Shown here: one piece after another, positions 32,396 through 41,093 of the stretch
Layout of the letters: every line of letters starts with the position of its first letter
Numbering within the stretch: the first letter of the stretch is position 1
Source: Gardnerella coleohominis
Lineage (GTDB): Bacteria; Actinomycetota; Actinomycetes; Actinomycetales; Bifidobacteriaceae
Assembly (NCBI RefSeq): GCF_002896555.1
Contig: NZ_MNLH01000001.1
Coordinates: 186,001-250,000, forward strand
Reading direction: 5' to 3'
DNA length: 64,000 bases
The notes under the pieces: generated by a model
The model's database searches: none
Seen by the model: only the letters and a program-made list of their open reading frames with translations
What the model was told of the DNA's origin: nothing
Translations under genes and position numbers: made by a program

Positions 32396-32667
32396 TGCGT
32401 AATTTGAAATTTCTTTTATATTCTAAAAATTTTGAAGTTAGTGTGTTAATTGAATAGGTTAATTGAATAATAAAATTGGCTAACTTAATAGGGTAGTAGG
32501 CTAGTAAACTAATCGTTTTTAGTAGCCTAATTGAACAATTGAATAATAAAATAATAAAATCTAAAGTTTGATATTAACAGATAATATTTATGTAATGCTT
32601 TATTTGATGTAATGTTTTATGTAGTGTTTTGATTTTATGGAATATTTTGAATTTGGATGGATTAATT

Positions 32668-33786
32668 ATGAGTGATCTTAAAGACGATAGTGAATTCGCT
32701 AACGACGATAACTTAGATAATGATTTCGATAGTGACGTAGATAGTGATTTAGATAACAACTTTGACGATACTGATGACTTCGACGACGAGATGTTTGCAA
32801 ATCTAGATGCTTCAACTCGCGCAACGATTTCTACTCCTGATTTTCACGGTTATCGTTCCGGTTTCGTAGCTGTAGTTGGTAGGCCAAACGTTGGTAAATC
32901 AACGCTTATGAACGCTCTTATTGGTACGCAAATTGCTATTGCGTCTTCTCGCCCGGAAACTACGCGTAAGGCTATTCGCGGAATTGTTACAACAGATAAT
33001 GCGCAAATGGTTTTGGTTGATACTCCGGGTATTCACCGTCCGCGTACTCTTCTTGGTCAGCGTTTGAACGATATTGTTGACGAGTCGCTTGCAGATGTTG
33101 ATGCGATTGCATTCTTGCTTCCAGCAGACCAGGAGATAGGACCAGGAGACAGGCGAATCCTGAGCCGTCTTCGCTCCGATTTTGCTAAAAAAGATGATAA
33201 GGGCAATTGGACTTGGAAAGTTCCGCTTATCGGTATTGTTACGAAAATCGATACGCTTAACCGCAGCGAGTTAGTTGCGCATTTGCTTCAAATTCAGCAG
33301 TTTGCTGATTTTACGGATATTGTGCCTGTGAGTGCGTTGGAACGCGACAATGTCGACGAAGTTAAGAATGTTTTGATTCAAAACTTGCCGGAAGGTCCAC
33401 AAATGTATCCGGCGGATCAGCTTAGCGAGGAAAGTCCAGAAAGTATGATTTCGGAGCTTATTCGTGGAGCGTTTTTGGAAGAATTGGATGACGAGTTGCC
33501 TCATTCTTTAGCTGTTGTAGTTGACGATATTGTGTATCCGGGTGGCGGCGAGGGCACTCAATACGAAGACAACAAAGCGCATGTGCTTGTGTCTGTTTAT
33601 GTTGAGCGTGATTCGCAAAAGCCGATTATTATTGGGCATCGTGCGGAGCATTTAGTTCGCGTTAAGAAGCGTTTGCGCACGGCAGTAAATCGCATTACTG
33701 GTTCTAAAGCTGTGCTTGAATTGCATGTGAAGGTTGCAAAAGGATGGCAGAGTGACCCTAAGAAGCTTGAGCGTTTGGGATTCTAA
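32668..33786 (+). CDS. era: GTPase Era with Asp-rich N-terminal extension
   Basis: This GTPase acts in 16S rRNA maturation and 30S assembly. G1 is GRPNVGKST (residues 71-79), G3 is DTPG, and G4 is TKID; the C-terminal KH domain has the GxxG region near VYVERDSQKPIIIGH. Before the G domain lies an extension of about 48 residues containing about 19 Asp. The start at 32668 (MSDLKDD) is preferred over an in-frame ATG at 32629, though the ribosome binding site is weak. The core is normal in length. Confidence 0.95.
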   Translation: MSDLKDDSEFANDDNLDNDFDSDVDSDLDNNFDDTDDFDDEMFANLDASTRATISTPDFHGYRSGFVAVVGRPNVGKSTLMNALIGTQIAIASSRPETTRKAIRGIVTTDNAQMVLVDTPGIHRPRTLLGQRLNDIVDESLADVDAIAFLLPADQEIGPGDRRILSRLRSDFAKKDDKGNWTWKVPLIGIVTKIDTLNRSELVAHLLQIQQFADFTDIVPVSALERDNVDEVKNVLIQNLPEGPQMYPADQLSEESPESMISELIRGAFLEELDDELPHSLAVVVDDIVYPGGGEGTQYEDNKAHVLVSVYVERDSQKPIIIGHRAEHLVRVKKRLRTAVNRITGSKAVLELHVKVAKGWQSDPKKLERLGF

Positions 33787-33933: not shown

Positions 33934-36900
33934 CTACATGCGACGATGACGTGCGAAAGATATGCCTCCGCCGATTGCCGCGATTCCTGCTATTGCTGAT
34001 GCGACTATTGCAGCAACAGTAAGAGTCTTATTTCCTTCCTGCTGAGCTTGTCCAGGATTTCCAGAAGCTTGAGAATTCTTAGATTCTTCCTTCTGCGATT
34101 CTTTGTTCTGAGTGCTGTTATTGTTATTAGAATCCTGAGTTTCTTGCTTATTATCTTCTTGCTTTGACTCAGAGTTCTTCTTGTTTTCAGCATTCTTATT
34201 CTCAGCAGACTTATTTGCATCATGTGATTGAGCACTGTTCTGATTTGCAGATGTACTTGTAGCAGAAGATGTGCTTTGTGTATGCTGCGTGTTTGCTTTA
34301 GTGTTTTTCACTGAAGCTTTCTCATTCGCATGCTCTGCTTTAGTAGACTTTCCAGTTTCACTCTTAACAACAGCCTGTGTAGCGTAATTTTCTGCGGTAG
34401 CTGAAGCGAACTCGTTAGATTGTTGTTCAACATCAACAGCAGGAACACTAACATGTGGTGTTTGTGGTGTGAATGGAACATTACTGTTTCCAGTGTTACC
34501 AGTGTTTCCAGTGTTTTCGGTATTGTTTGTGCTTCCTGTATTACCAGTGTTGCTGTGGTCGCTTCCTCCCTGACTTGGTTCAACAACCGGTGGCTTTGGT
34601 GCAGGTGGTACAACTGGTGGTACAACAGATGGTGTAACAACAGACTCGGGTAGCTGTGTCGCGAGTGTTTTTGCAGACTCGGTGAGTGTTGCAGCAGTAG
34701 TTTTCAGTGTATTAACTTTTTCTGTCAGAGTTTGTACGAAGCTTTCAAACTCTGGATAAGCTGCCAAGAACGTTGACTGCATGAAGGATTGCTGAGTTGT
34801 TGCGTCAGTAACAACAGCCTTAAACTTTTCTTCCGCAGTCTTAAGATCATTCTGTATCTTTTCAATCTTGGTTTTAGCAGCTTCTACAACTTCCTGAGCA
34901 GTCTTAACCTTAGCTTGAGCATTTGTTACAGCAGTCTGAGCAAGTTGAATCTTCTTAACAACATTTTCTTTTGCAGTCTTAACAGCATCATTTGCGTTTG
35001 TTAAGGTTTCACCAGCCTTCGTGACTTTTGTTTTCAATGCTTCAAGCTGTGCTGTTACTGTGTTCTGAGTATCTTTAGCGCCTTGAAGAGCAGTCTGAGC
35101 AGCTTGAACTTCACTCTTAGCATTTTCAACTTTCTGATTCTCAGATTCAATCTGAGTTGTAAGCTCGCCAATCTTCTTAGTCAGCGTAGTTACCTTCTCA
35201 TTAGCAACTTTAAGCTCTTTATCAGCCTTAGTTTTGGCAGCTTCAGCAGCTTTGACGGCCTGCTTGGCTGACTCTACATTAGCTTCAGCAGCTGTAATAG
35301 CATTGGTAATTTCGCCATCAACTTTTGCTCGCTGTGCCTTGGCAGCAGTGCGAGCTGCTTTAGCAGTCTGCTCTGCAGTTTCAGCTTGTGACTTCAGAGT
35401 CTTCGCTTTTTCTTTCAATCCGTTAAGTTCGGTTGTAAGCTGATTAATCTGTTGCTGGCGTGCTTCTTTGCCTAGCTGTGCAGCTTGTTCAGCTTGCTGC
35501 TTAGCAGCTTCGTATGCATTCTTAGCGGTATCCCAAGCGTTCTTCAGCTCAGTAGCCTTATTAGCAGCCTCTTCCTTAGCCTTATTTGCTTCCTGAGAAG
35601 CAGTTTTAGCCTGTTCAAACGTCGTATTTGCGCTTGCAACAGCCTTCTTAAGATTCTCAATTTCAGACTTTTTGGAATCAGCAGTGCTTATTGAATTAGT
35701 AATATCAGTAATTTTAGATTCTATTCTTTGCACTTCAGATCTTGCTTGATTAAGAAGTAGATTAACAATTTCTTGCGGAGCTGCCCACGTTACGCCAGTT
35801 TGGCTATAGTACGCAACAAGTTCTTGAGCTTTTTGCTTAAGAACATCAAGTGCGTTCTTTTCCTGATCTTGCAAACCAACTTCAGGTTTAGCGGCATTTG
35901 CAGCGTCTAAGTTGTTAGCATCGCTCATATTCAAGTCATAATGCAATTTACGAAGCTCATACTTTTTAACAAACAAATCGTAGTTTGCTTTATTTGCTTC
36001 AGCATTCAGCTTGTTGATATTGTCATCCTCTTTCAGCTCTTCTTTAGCGCTGTCACTAAGGCTTTTCTCATAATCTCCAAGAAGCTGCTTATATTTAGCA
36101 ACGCTAATCGAAGATTCGTCGCTTCCGTGCCATACAGCCACATCTCCCGCGACAACTTCTTTGCTAGTTGTAGACTTTCCGTTTACTGTGGTTATACTTG
36201 TAGCTTCTTCCAAGCTCAAGTCGCTTTCAGCGAATCCGCCAGCAGTAATATCTTTGCTAGCAAAATTCGTGTAATGACCCACAGATTCCAAGAAAATATC
36301 TTTGAGTTTACTATTATCAGCATCATCTACAAACAACTTAATCTCTGGATGCTGCCACATGTATTGACGTAAATCATAACGATGCTGCTTAAGCATTTCC
36401 TTACCAGCATCAGAAATCTTATGTTTTTCATTATTTTTTTCGCCAGTTACAAACGTTCCTGCAACAGCCTTGTCGTAACGCTCTTTTTCAACCGTGTACC
36501 ATCCGCTAAGAGCGTTATACTTTTCTCCATATTTAGTAGAACAAGACGTATTGCCATTTACTGTTACATAGCACTTGCTATATTCCTGATCCTTGTGATT
36601 TGTAGAATCGCCGTCGTAATTGCCCCACGCAAGATTTTCTGCAGTTTTGTATGGTGTGGTTTCCATCACTTCGCTACCCTCATAACCAGGGTGGTTTATT
36701 GCATGATCATGATTTGCACCAGAATAGAAGGAGTTTACAATTGACTCAGCAATCAAGCTAAGACGCACGTTAACATCGCCCAACGCCTTTTTCTCTTCAG
36801 TATTTGCGCTGTTTTTATCGCTATCTTCTTTGCGTAGCTTGTTGAGCGAATCGTAGTAAGTTGCAGCTTCCTTCATGTTTTGCAATGAATCCGCGCCGCC

Positions 36901-38202
36901 AACTTTGCCGAGCTTTACAAGATCCTTATACCACATAGGTACTTCTATAACGCGGTCTAGAACGTTTTCTGTTTTGCCTTTGTTCTGGACTTGCTTCATG
37001 ATTTCGACTCTTTTACCGTTCAAAATCTGCTTAGCGCGCTGAGCGTCTTCAAGAAGAGCTTTATCTTCTTTGCTAGTAGAATTTTTATAAGTTTCAATCA
37101 CATAATCCAAGAATCCTGCAAAGTTCGCTGTAGTTTTAGAAGTATCTTTCTTAGCAGCTGCATCTGCAGCTTTCTTAGCAGCTTCCACAGCTTTTTCTGC
37201 ATCGCCCAACTTCTTAACATCTGGGTTATTTTCAAGATCTTTTTCTGCTGAGTTGAGATTGTTTCCAGCGTTATCTAAATCGTTTTTCTTATTTTTAGCT
37301 TCCTGAGCCGTTTGAGTTGCTGTAGTATTTGCTTGCTCATAAGCTTGCTTAGCTTCATTTGCTTTCTTCTCTAGCTCTTGCACCTCGGCATTTGTTGATC
37401 CGGAACCAGCAGCGTTCAGATTATCTATTTCTTTTTGAATCTTTTCCTGCTGTTCTGTATTAGCTTTTACAGCTTGCTCTGCAGCAGTTTGCTCTTTCTC
37501 TTTTTCAGTTGCTGTAGCAGAAAGCTGATTTGCTTGTTCCTGAGCTTTATTCTTATCTTGCTTAGCCTTTTCAAGCTGAGTATTGGCAGTTTGCAGATTA
37601 CCTGTTTCAGTTTTTACTTTTTCTCCAGCTTTAGTCTGTTCTGTTGTTTTAGTTTGAACGTCTTCGTTTGCAGTTCCAAGCTCTGTAGTTTTTGCATCTT
37701 TTTCTTTTTGAGTTGCTTTCAGTTTATTTTCAGCAGCCGTCTGGTTTGCTGTTTCTTGATCAAGAACAGTTCGCTTATCTTTAACACCTTCGTTAGCCTT
37801 ATCTACCGCAGTCTGATGCTCAGATAATTCCTTATCAGCTTTACCTTTTTCTTCTTCAGCTGTTTGTACTTCTTTTTTCTTATTGTCTAATTCAGTCTGA
37901 GCTTCAGTTACTTCCTTGTTGGCTTGAAGTGCCTCGCTATTAGCGTCACTAGCTTCACTTTCAGCCTTATTTACGTCCTCATCAATTTTGCTTTTCTGTG
38001 TTTTAGCATCTTCAATAGCTTGCTTAGCTTCTTTTTTAGCTTTATCTGTAGCACTTTCTCCCTGCTGCACTGCAGGAGGATTCGAGTCAGATGGTGGATT
38101 AGATGGTGGCTCAGTAGTTGCAGCATTGGCAACACTTGCCATACCAAATAATGCAAGGGAACTTGCGCCTAATGAGATTGCTACTGCGAGTTTGGCGTTC
38201 AT
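33934..38202 (-). CDS. Large coiled-coil surface protein with central CAP-like domain
   Basis: The 1422-residue exported protein starts at 38202 after AGAGGAGAGG, with a signal peptide (residues 1-28, ending VANA-A). Residues about 50-350 form an Ala/Lys/Glu/Gln-rich coiled coil. Residues about 360-690 form a globular domain with ENLAWG (522) and GHYTNF (642), spaced as in CAP/SCP domains and in PrgA/SEC10-type surface exclusion proteins, plus C544 and C554. A second coiled coil spans about 780-1180. Then come a Pro-rich stretch (1190-1215), Asn-Thr-Gly repeats, a long hydrophilic linker and a C-terminal helix (1394-1416) ending RHRRM. I see no LPxTG. It is probably an adhesin or surface-exclusion-like protein. 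Its promoter contains a poly-C tract. Confidence 0.85.
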   Translation of the reverse strand: MNAKLAVAISLGASSLALFGMASVANAATTEPPSNPPSDSNPPAVQQGESATDKAKKEAKQAIEDAKTQKSKIDEDVNKAESEASDANSEALQANKEVTEAQTELDNKKKEVQTAEEEKGKADKELSEHQTAVDKANEGVKDKRTVLDQETANQTAAENKLKATQKEKDAKTTELGTANEDVQTKTTEQTKAGEKVKTETGNLQTANTQLEKAKQDKNKAQEQANQLSATATEKEKEQTAAEQAVKANTEQQEKIQKEIDNLNAAGSGSTNAEVQELEKKANEAKQAYEQANTTATQTAQEAKNKKNDLDNAGNNLNSAEKDLENNPDVKKLGDAEKAVEAAKKAADAAAKKDTSKTTANFAGFLDYVIETYKNSTSKEDKALLEDAQRAKQILNGKRVEIMKQVQNKGKTENVLDRVIEVPMWYKDLVKLGKVGGADSLQNMKEAATYYDSLNKLRKEDSDKNSANTEEKKALGDVNVRLSLIAESIVNSFYSGANHDHAINHPGYEGSEVMETTPYKTAENLAWGNYDGDSTNHKDQEYSKCYVTVNGNTSCSTKYGEKYNALSGWYTVEKERYDKAVAGTFVTGEKNNEKHKISDAGKEMLKQHRYDLRQYMWQHPEIKLFVDDADNSKLKDIFLESVGHYTNFASKDITAGGFAESDLSLEEATSITTVNGKSTTSKEVVAGDVAVWHGSDESSISVAKYKQLLGDYEKSLSDSAKEELKEDDNINKLNAEANKANYDLFVKKYELRKLHYDLNMSDANNLDAANAAKPEVGLQDQEKNALDVLKQKAQELVAYYSQTGVTWAAPQEIVNLLLNQARSEVQRIESKITDITNSISTADSKKSEIENLKKAVASANTTFEQAKTASQEANKAKEEAANKATELKNAWDTAKNAYEAAKQQAEQAAQLGKEARQQQINQLTTELNGLKEKAKTLKSQAETAEQTAKAARTAAKAQRAKVDGEITNAITAAEANVESAKQAVKAAEAAKTKADKELKVANEKVTTLTKKIGELTTQIESENQKVENAKSEVQAAQTALQGAKDTQNTVTAQLEALKTKVTKAGETLTNANDAVKTAKENVVKKIQLAQTAVTNAQAKVKTAQEVVEAAKTKIEKIQNDLKTAEEKFKAVVTDATTQQSFMQSTFLAAYPEFESFVQTLTEKVNTLKTTAATLTESAKTLATQLPESVVTPSVVPPVVPPAPKPPVVEPSQGGSDHSNTGNTGSTNNTENTGNTGNTGNSNVPFTPQTPHVSVPAVDVEQQSNEFASATAENYATQAVVKSETGKSTKAEHANEKASVKNTKANTQHTQSTSSATSTSANQNSAQSHDANKSAENKNAENKKNSESKQEDNKQETQDSNNNNSTQNKESQKEESKNSQASGNPGQAQQEGNKTLTVAAIVASAIAGIAAIGGGISFARHRRM

Positions 38203-38331
38203 AAAACCTCTCCTCTTAATCGTTATGTAAATTAGAAGATTTTCATATTCTCTCGGCAAGTTATTCGTTAAGACTGCAACATTATTATTGAAAATGCTGC
38301 AATCTTATCTTTAATCTTGCTCACGTAGAAC

Positions 38332-38362
38332 ATTGTATTCTTCTACGGGGGGGGGGTATCAA
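38332..38362 (-). promoter_or_regulatory. Candidate phase-variable promoter with poly-C spacer
   Basis: On the minus strand, -35 TTGATA (38362-38357) is followed by ten C (38356-38347), GTAGAAGAA and -10 TACAAT (38337-38332). The spacer is 19 bp and both hexamers match consensus at 5 of 6 positions. Transcription would start near 38325, about 120 bases before the surface protein start. Confidence 0.75.
38347..38356. repeat. Homopolymeric G10/C10 tract
   Basis: This is the only long G or C run I see in the window, in an otherwise AT-rich genome. It lies inside the spacer of the surface protein promoter. Confidence 0.95.
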
Positions 38363-38577
38363 GTTTTTCTCTGTGATTTTAACAAATAGCCATGGATAAA
38401 TTTGAGAATTAATATAATAAACAAAAACCGCGGCAGACAGTGAATTACAAAGTCAAACCGCGGCTATTTTATTGGTCAGTATAATGCGCAATATCGCCTA
38501 AGTTAAAGCAAACTTAAGCAATAAGTTAAAGCACAATAAACTAAAGTAATAAACTTAACGTATTACATAAGTTAATA

Positions 38578-40617
38578 CTACTTTTTGCGCGTAGTGTACA
38601 TTTGGGTGTTAAGAAGCGTGGCATATCGTTTAATAACACGCGGACGTATCACCTTCATAGATGCTGTTAGCAATCCATTCTCTTGAGTGAACTCTTCAGG
38701 AAGAACAATGAACTTTCTCACAGATTCTGCGCGTGAAACGCCTTCGTTAGCAATGTCAACGAACTTTTGAACTTCAGCGCGAACAACAGCATTACGAGCA
38801 GCTTCTTCCATAGTCATATTAGCGTCAAGACCCTTGTTCTTAAGCCACGTACGCAAAGTTGGTTCGTCTAAAGTAACTAAAGCGGAAATAAATGGACGTT
38901 TATCTCCAAGTACTAAAGCTTGCGAAACAATCTCACAGCGCTTAATTATTTCCTCAATAGGGCTTGGCGCAACGTTCTTTCCGCCAGCTGTAATGATTAA
39001 ATCTTTCTTTCGGCCTGTAATATAAAGGAATCCTTCATTATCAATACGGCCAAGATCGCCTGTAGCATACCATCCATCTTCAGTGAATGATGTTTCCGTA
39101 GCTTCAGCATTCTTATGGTAACGCTTAAATACGCATGTGCCTTTAATCTGAATCTCACCATCATGAGCAATCCTAAGAGTAAATCCAGGGAAAGCGATTC
39201 CGACTGAGCCTTCTCTAAATGGAACTCCAAGAGGGCTAAATGCGCATGGTGCAGTAGTTTCAGTCAAGCCGTATCCTTCATATACAGGCACTCCAGCACC
39301 GCGGAAGAATGAAAGAAGCTCAGGATCCAATGGGGCTCCGCCTGCAACAATCCAATGCGCGCGACCACCCAAAGCTTGTCGGATAGAATGATAAACCATT
39401 TGATCATACGCAGCGCGACGAGCTTGAGTGATTGCTTTAGCCTTGCCGTACTTTGAAATTTCCTTCATATACTGCTGAGCCGTAACAACTGCGCCTTGGA
39501 ATGCCAATCCTTTTACGCCGTGACCAGCTTTTTGTGAAGCGGCGTTATAAACTTTTTCAAGCACACGAGGAACAACAATCATTACGGTTGGCTTTGCTAC
39601 TTGCAAATCAGAAATAAGAGTAGAAATGCCTTGAGCAATATAAATTCGCAAAGAACTTGCTACAACAATGTAGTTAATAGCACGAGCAAAAGAGTGAGCT
39701 TGCGGTAAGAACAGCAAAACAGATCCATTTTTCTCGCTTAAAAGTTCAGGCAAATAAGTTGGAAGATTAAGAGCTGTAGTGCAATAATGCTCATGCGTCA
39801 TTTCAACGCCTTTAGGAGCTGCAGTCGATCCGGAAGTATAAACAATAGAGCATAAATCAGTTTTCTTTACAGAATCAATTCTTGCATCCAAAGCTTCGTC
39901 GCTAACTGTATATCCAAAAGCTTGAAGTTCGGCCAATCCGCCCGTTTCAATGCAAATAATTCTTTCCAATGTAGGGCAATCTTCAATTGCTCCATCTGCT
40001 TTATCGCGCATTTCAGTGGTTCCAACAATTAAGAACCTTGAATCAGAATTATTTACAATATTGCGAATCTGCTCTGCAGAATCAGTGTCATAAATAGTAG
40101 CTAAAACGCCTCCGCAAGCCATAATAGCTGCATCAATAACATCCCATTCATAGGATGTTTTACACATAAGAGATACAGAATCGCCTTTCTTCAATCCGTA
40201 ATGCATTAAGCCTTTTGCGGCTGCTCGAACTTCTGAAAGAAACTCGTTAGCTGTTTTAGTAATCCAACGATTTCCGTTTTTATAAGTGTAAAGAGGATCA
40301 TCGCCCATACGAGATGCACGATTAGCATACAAGTCGTAAATACTTGTTCCATCGTCTAAAGGAGGATTTCCTTGAGTGCTTGTAGTCAGTAAACCAGTTT
40401 CAGGATCAACCATAGTAGTGGTTGGCATTCCTGGACCCCACTCGTCAACTCTTGGAAGGAGCGGATTTACGCTACCTTCTGATACGTTATGCAATTCCGG
40501 ATAATCTGGTCCACCTGCTCGATCATCGCTGACAGGATGTGCAAAGTTACCACTAATATGCAGTGCTTTTCTTGCTAGATTAAATGCCTGCTGCTGGAGT
40601 GTATTAAGGACGGACAC
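38578..40617 (-). CDS. Long-chain acyl-CoA ligase (AMP-binding)
   Basis: This ATP-dependent acyl-CoA synthetase activates fatty acids through acyl-AMP. Motifs include YTSGSTAAPKGVEMTH (P-loop-like), YGLTETTAP, GWYATGDLGRID and TGRKKDLIITAGGKN. The latter holds the hinge region, and the catalytic Lys lies further C-terminal. The GTG at 40617 has GAAGGAG five bases upstream, giving 679 residues. A frame from 40713 would add 32 residues without a site. The chain length preference is not visible. It is likely used for incorporating exogenous fatty acids. Confidence 0.92.
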   Translation of the reverse strand: MSVLNTLQQQAFNLARKALHISGNFAHPVSDDRAGGPDYPELHNVSEGSVNPLLPRVDEWGPGMPTTTMVDPETGLLTTSTQGNPPLDDGTSIYDLYANRASRMGDDPLYTYKNGNRWITKTANEFLSEVRAAAKGLMHYGLKKGDSVSLMCKTSYEWDVIDAAIMACGGVLATIYDTDSAEQIRNIVNNSDSRFLIVGTTEMRDKADGAIEDCPTLERIICIETGGLAELQAFGYTVSDEALDARIDSVKKTDLCSIVYTSGSTAAPKGVEMTHEHYCTTALNLPTYLPELLSEKNGSVLLFLPQAHSFARAINYIVVASSLRIYIAQGISTLISDLQVAKPTVMIVVPRVLEKVYNAASQKAGHGVKGLAFQGAVVTAQQYMKEISKYGKAKAITQARRAAYDQMVYHSIRQALGGRAHWIVAGGAPLDPELLSFFRGAGVPVYEGYGLTETTAPCAFSPLGVPFREGSVGIAFPGFTLRIAHDGEIQIKGTCVFKRYHKNAEATETSFTEDGWYATGDLGRIDNEGFLYITGRKKDLIITAGGKNVAPSPIEEIIKRCEIVSQALVLGDKRPFISALVTLDEPTLRTWLKNKGLDANMTMEEAARNAVVRAEVQKFVDIANEGVSRAESVRKFIVLPEEFTQENGLLTASMKVIRPRVIKRYATLLNTQMYTTRKK

Positions 40618-41093
40618 ATCTGCTCCTTCATCATGCCGAAATCGGCTACTTCTTAGCGCACAAAAATAATACGCTTTATTACTAATACATATGATAATAG
40701 TCCATATGCTCAAGCATATTGATGATTGCTACAATAAAAGTGATAAATTTTTTCAAATATTTTCAAATTTGTCACAATAAGTTCATTTATATTCGTTATT
40801 GCAATTGTTGAAGTTGGTGAAGTTATTGCAAATATAGTAGCTATTCCAGGTAATACAGATATTCAAGCTATTACAGATATTAAATTTATTAAATCCATTA
40901 AATCAATTTCGACTTTATTGTATTCAAAATTTAGTCTTTGCGGTTAGTTATACTAGCAAAGTTGCTTTGGCGAGGGAACCGCTAGTTAAAGGTGAGTTCC
41001 GTTATCGACTGGGCTGATAGCCAGCTTATGGTGGTTTTCGGCGCGTCGGTGCGCCTGAAGCTGGATTAATAACCAGACCATAAGGAGACCGAT
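40618..41093 (+). other. Intergenic region upstream of rplY
   Basis: This is 476 bases. The first 330 are AT-rich with a repeated AATACAGATATT / ATTACAGATATT motif and an open but startless frame. A -10-like TATACT lies at 40949-40954. The last 130 bases form the structured leader of rplY described separately. Confidence 0.5.
40961..41093 (+). promoter_or_regulatory. Structured 5' leader of rplY, candidate autoregulatory element
   Basis: Three hairpins can form: GGAAC/GTTCC (40975-40979, 40996-41000), GGCGC/GCGCC (41040-41044, 41051-41055) and CTGG/CCAG (41061-41064, 41073-41076). Two longer helices exclude each other. CCAGCTT (41021-41027) pairs with AAGCTGG (41058-41064). CTTATGG (41025-41031) pairs with CCATAAG (41078-41084), which overlaps the AAGGAG site at 41082-41087. 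This suggests a translational switch, perhaps L25 autoregulation. Confidence 0.55.

Follow-up and report, generated by a model that had tools for sequence, protein, structure and literature searches.

In the 64-kb window, the whole stretch of DNA analysed here, a C10 homopolymer lies between two hexamers resembling the -35 and -10 elements of a promoter, upstream of a minus-strand gene for a putative surface protein of 1,422 residues. The question raised by this locus is whether the tract is a length-variable part of the promoter itself or accompanies transcription that is set elsewhere. The initial annotation proposed a probable slippage-variable promoter. We consider this the best explanation, with a probability of about 80 % as judged from sequence: the C10 would be the variable spacer part of a main sigma-A-type promoter (TTGATA-Cn-N9-TAnnnT), in which slippage would cause random changes in transcription between sibling cells.

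Architecture of the candidate promoter

On the minus strand, positions 38362 to 38332 carry TTGATA-C10-GTAGAAGAA-TACAAT, exactly as first annotated, with the homopolymer wholly between the -35 and -10 hexamers and a spacer of 19 bp. The following elements were assigned:

38357-38362, minus strand: -35-like hexamer TTGATA, from the sequence and the comparison of ten family promoters
38347-38356, minus strand: C10 homopolymer tract inside the promoter spacer, from the sequence and family comparison
38338-38346, minus strand: linker from tract to -10, GTAGAAGAA, 9 bases, constant in length and variable in sequence within the family
38332-38337, minus strand: -10-like hexamer TACAAT, from the family comparison
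38324-38326, minus strand: predicted transcription start region, placed from the position of the -10
38333-38362, plus strand: opposite-strand reading of the same tract, TTGTAT-N8-G10-TATCAA, spacer 18, a candidate antisense promoter directed at the end of the AMP-binding enzyme gene

The ATG of the 1,422-residue frame, at 38202, is separated from the -10 by 129 bases; the earlier figure of about 120 bases agrees approximately with the interval that begins at the predicted transcription start. The tract is the sole G or C run of at least six bases in the window, and about 0.001 runs of at least ten would be expected by chance per 64 kb (first-order Markov estimate from the window dinucleotides), which bears out the earlier view that a C10 here is unlikely to be fortuitous. 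The 1.67-Mb genome (47 contigs) carries 19 tracts of at least eight bases. A sigma-70 scan listed one other site, at 38506-38478, against an average of 1.5 in shuffles; the C10 promoter is absent from that list because the scan permits spacers of 16-18 only.

In the proposed mechanism, slipped-strand mispairing at replication would add or remove C's, and each step would change the distance between -35 and -10 by one base together with the angle between them. Provided that RNA polymerase uses these hexamers, as their arrangement suggests, the altered geometry would alter promoter strength at random among sibling cells.

A role of the tract chiefly in a plus-strand promoter was also considered and ranked second. 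Of the ten family members, three have the plus-strand TTGTAT (G000, the genome of the window, G036 and G109) and seven lack it. Beyond the tract, no plus-strand frame of at least 100 residues starts before 41094, which is past the entire upstream minus-strand gene.

Conservation in related genomes

Counting the present genome, 8 of 112 genomes of the genus yielded similar upstream DNA (7 of the 111 others), giving ten readable family promoters: one each in G000, G036, G109, G058, G107 and G077, and two copies each in G105 and G106. In all ten, TAnnnT lies exactly 9 bases 3' of the tract despite differing linker sequence; at any other offset from 0 to 39 it occurs in at most two. The -10 variants are TACAAT, TATAAT, TATACT and TATGTT, and the hexamer adjoining the tract is TTGATA in seven members, TTGAAG in one and TATATA in two. 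These members are not independent: G106a, G058, G107 and G105b have an almost identical linker and -10, and G000, G036 and G109 resemble one another closely. Approximately five distinct sequences therefore underlie the nine-base rule.

The G077 member has a broken tract (CCCCCACCC) and retains TTGAAG-18 bp-TATACT, while an upstream TGnTAAnAT motif found in its relatives is missing. This is the pattern expected if the -35 and -10 are the retained elements. The G077 gene has no stop within its assembled part. A scan of the collection for AAACTWKATACCCCCCC returned 28 stretches, 5 from Gardnerella and 23 from other bacteria. The fixed -10 position, the retained hexamers around the broken tract and the length differences described below all support the promoter originally suggested.

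Variation in tract length

Tract length across relatives, a check proposed at the outset, was found not to be fixed. Among the nine intact tracts six are C10 and one each is C9, C8 and C7, corresponding to spacers of 19, 18, 17 and 16, as read from assembled genomes in which homopolymers of 9-10 bases may be off by one base and an assembly error is possible in any single case. The two promoter copies of G105 differ, one having C7 and the other C10. The G058 and G106 loci differ at 27 of 803 columns overall; within a stretch of 439 columns that starts 186 before the tract and reaches into the coding region, there are two differences, C9 versus C10 and an A6 versus A5 run. Tract length thus differs between close relatives with constant flanks, for which slippage is the probable cause.

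The textbook optimum for the spacer is 17 bp, by which C8 could be the high state and C10 a weak one, as the initial annotation proposed. C10, the commonest state (six of nine), may reflect a length equilibrium, a bias towards OFF in the sequenced isolates or the active state. A spacer of 19 is also the mode of the G-type promoters described below, and since C10 is commonest as well, 19 bp might be the active or the equilibrium state.

The downstream gene and its leader

The transcribed region predicted downstream of the promoter comprises the following features:

38269-38307, minus strand: stem-loop of 15 pairs in the 5' untranslated region (leader fold z -4.7)
38207-38214, minus strand: ribosome-binding site AGGAGAGG, from the sequence, with AGGAGA in nine of nine aligned loci
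33934-38202, minus strand: gene for a 1,422-residue exported coiled-coil protein with a signal peptide and a C-terminal hydrophobic segment and basic tail, all by eye

The ribosome-binding site lies immediately 5' of the ATG. The gene is flanked by that for an AMP-binding enzyme (minus strand, 38578-40713) and that for a GTPase with a KH domain (plus strand, 32629-33786), which we take to be Era-like.

Long coiled-coil-like stretches were seen in the protein by eye. Its description as an exported, putative surface protein, in line with the initial annotation, is based on the signal peptide and on the hydrophobic segment and basic tail at the C-terminus; no LPXTG motif was seen near the C-terminus by eye. 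A Pfam scan gave no match, and an NCBIfam scan gave matches far under the cut-offs to coiled-coil proteins; the SEC10/PgrA surface exclusion protein (TIGR04320) was rejected, its match being confined to residues 1015-1126 and scoring 25.4 bits where the cut-off is 70. In a solved-structure search with the alignment of residues 400-760 the best E value was 0.022. A protein search returned 35 relatives, among which a source name is given for a single one, a hypothetical protein from Gardnerella sp. KA00255.

The strong stem-loop is situated directly 3' of the predicted transcription start and may possibly act as an mRNA stabiliser or regulator. Fold z values for the ten family leaders range from -1.5 to -4.5, three being above -2. 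The leader had no match in Rfam, and a MAFFT alignment of nine of the ten family leaders did not bring the stem-loops into register.

Homopolymer tracts across the genus

The pattern TTGA-N11-G8+-N0-4-TATnnT, a mirror layout in which poly-G rather than poly-C occupies the spacer, had 45 matches in 12 of the 112 genomes (eleven of 1.5-1.8 Mb and one of 2.9 Mb), compared with none for the reversed-pattern control. One promoter family beginning TTGACTTTT accounts for 35 of these matches, with 10 others. When 107 tracts from five genomes were read in the G sense (duplicates kept, one G000 tract, the C8 at C1:16399, left out), 41 had TA immediately 3' of the run and TTG at 7-10 bases 5' of it. The spacers of these 41 range from 17 to 25 with a mode of 19 (20 of 41), and two of them correspond to the promoter studied here and to its relative in G036, each in its opposite-strand reading.

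Positional signals were counted in 62 flank clusters, corresponding to 101 tracts after removal of same-genome duplicates by flank and including coding tracts. Tracts in G077, G106, G108, G109 and G110 were counted as well, their flanks being used at the family loci only. Of the 62 clusters, 22 have TAT adjoining the G run, where the background is 1.8 per offset, and 8 have TTGA at 8 bases 5' of the run, where it is 0.75. A general promoter score on the C-sense strand showed no excess, with at least 9/12 matches in 5 of 62 clusters versus 5.0 in shuffles and at least 8/12 in 13 versus 20.1. On the G-sense strand there was a modest excess (10 of 62 clusters versus 4.4 in shuffles, maximum 9 in 100). 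The signal is carried by the positional test at fixed offsets and not by the general best-promoter score.

More than one tract length was present in 11 of 14 multi-member clusters. Pfam domains were searched in seven chosen downstream proteins of the present genome; Rib (two), pilin/SpaA, FIVAR and Ig-like domains were found in five and nothing in two.

A near-identical promoter, TTGACTTTTNNNAAC-G9-11-TAT[GC]TT, was observed in all five genomes with fetched flanks. It lies 5' of a multi-copy family of presumed secreted proteins that start with M[MLF]NKKAIAA[LF]AAGATL and range from about 200 to at least 475 residues (loci L006, L011, L013, L084, L086, L088, L099, L104, L106, L107, L109, L111, L113, L124, L128, L137, L141, L144, L145 and L147). 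Another conserved tract, GG[CT]GC[AT]ATGGTGCT[TC]-G9-11-TATTCG, lies near the start of a long frame in L007, L100, L139, L142 and L158 and is probably a frameshift-type switch; in L007 the G run lies 34 bases into a frame of 1,659 residues. A second family with a C run on the gene strand (L015:2895-2904, L102, L123 and L153) is located 194-229 bases before a presumed secreted protein. Its L015 sequence is TTAGAGCA-C10-GTAGGAAATTTTACAGT, and no clear -35/-10 pair was seen around the tract of this family by eye.

Among tracts of at least eight bases, and with the origin set at dnaA and the terminus set opposite, the leading strand carries the G run in 23 of 24 cases in G105, 21 of 22 in G107 and 16 of 18 in G058, where the main contig was counted. 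Short runs in the window are also skewed (28 G4+ and 7 C4+ runs on the plus strand), so GC skew explains part of the strand bias.

Alternative explanations

Upstream of the -35 lies a further conserved element:

38375-38399, minus strand: conserved block TTATCCATGGCTATTTGTTAAAATC 5' of the -35, with an extended -10-like TGTTAAAAT at 38384-38376, from the comparison of family loci

The block is among the best conserved stretches of the upstream DNA. It may be a second promoter or part of a protein-binding site. The motif TGnTAAnAT within it occurs 17-20 bases before the tract in all nine intact-tract members, and a pattern with TGNTAANAT at this position matched the same nine (7 of 10 genomes searched), with none for the reversed-pattern control. 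Given this conservation, the block could bind a regulator, the tract length then determining how far, and at what helical phase, that site lies from the -10, by analogy with the Bordetella fim C-stretch, for which a model with an activator region has been discussed (PMC1891110). However, a recognisable -35 adjoins the tract in eight of ten members and the motif is missing in G077, and we regard such an arrangement as unlikely here. The same pattern and conservation would also suit the extended -10 being itself the main promoter, in which case transcription would start 5' of the tract and the C run would fall in the first transcribed bases, affecting escape, pausing or RNA stability. This we consider a rather poor fit: no clear -35 was seen for TGnTAAnAT, G077 lacks the motif while retaining the -35 and -10 around its broken tract, and the motif-to-tract distance varies whereas that from tract to TAnnnT is always 9. 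The absence in G077 argues that the motif is not essential, and the spacer promoter and the upstream motif may both be in use.

The C run might instead be a mutational by-product of GC skew and tract expansion with no effect on expression. Replication direction concentrates G runs on one strand, and tracts of 9-11 bases occur in coding places too, from which it follows that tract length is partly set by mutation. Against a by-product stand the constant 9 bases between tract and -10 in all ten members and the mirror promoter pattern with its 45 matches versus 0 in the control, making this very improbable. A spacer of variable length inside the main promoter is therefore retained as the best explanation, with several points counted against it: C10 as the commonest length, the two TATATA members, kinship within the family, the null C-sense score and the second promoter-like motif upstream.

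Implications for surface-protein expression

Gardnerella is a key contributor to bacterial vaginosis, and descriptions of how its surface varies within a clone have only begun to appear (PMC11287997). We suggest tentatively, at somewhat less than even odds, that Gardnerella species possess a group of promoters that slip independently of one another and follow two mirror layouts, with poly-G adjoining the -10 or poly-C adjoining the -35, and that much of the surface-protein repertoire is thereby a combinatorial bet-hedging system set at the level of transcription. As part of the same suggestion, the single tract at the present locus may also belong to two face-to-face promoters, with a coding-strand spacer of 9+n and an opposite-strand spacer of 8+n. 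Should the spacer promoters function in the way that their layout indicates, tract lengths read from genomes or deep amplicon data could serve to estimate the expression state of several surface proteins. They would then also offer a mechanism behind the published finding that G/C tracts are mostly located 5' of genes (PMC11287997).

Comparison with known systems

Promoters with a fim-type C-stretch are not known to have a -35 hexamer at the tract, and have an activator site upstream. The present locus departs from this type in that TTGATA or TTGAAG adjoins the tract in eight of ten members; a conserved upstream block is present. The C-stretch of Bordetella pertussis fim2/fim3/fimX, as treated in PMC1891110, is similar in being a poly-C in the promoter of a surface structure whose length influences transcription, and different in that the model there includes an upstream activator region besides the -10 box and C-stretch, whereas here a -35-like hexamer is directly next to the tract. 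In Haemophilus influenzae hifA/hifB, as covered in the review PMC3899988, a TA repeat in the spacer likewise changes the -35/-10 spacing, but that repeat is a dinucleotide in a bidirectional region shared by two genes; the present tract concerns one gene, with the opposite-strand reading found in only three of ten members.

Within the genus, the tracts of at least eight bases described by Garcia 2024 (PMC11287997) are of the same class as the present one and include tracts 5' of genes, among them surface-protein genes; approximately 70 % of the G/C tracts there lie upstream of genes, and many tracts are linked to proteins with surface motifs. One tract in that study was found by Sanger sequencing to vary in length among colonies. 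Its primers match L100 of G105 with at most three mismatches each, 545 bases apart, around the tract near the start of a long frame whose counterpart is L007; the colony-tested tract is thus another one, near a frame start, and not the present promoter. The main text of that paper has the word 'promoter' in a single place, the title of a reference, and does not use 'spacer'. A slippage paper on NanH3 is cited in PMC11868660. No paper on promoter-spacer tracts in Gardnerella was among the matches listed, subscription journals being mostly outside the coverage.

The closest parallel is porA of Neisseria meningitidis, in which a poly-G lies between -35 and -10 (van der Ende 1995, as cited in the review PMC3899988). 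Both have a G/C homopolymer in the -35/-10 spacer upstream of a surface-protein gene, putatively so here, and in porA one-base changes alter transcription. The present tract differs in being C on the coding strand, in adjoining the -35 and lying 9 bases from the -10, and in its Gardnerella-type host. The mechanism would be of the known porA kind, and the present locus would add a promoter in a genus whose genomes each appear to contain many instances of this layout.
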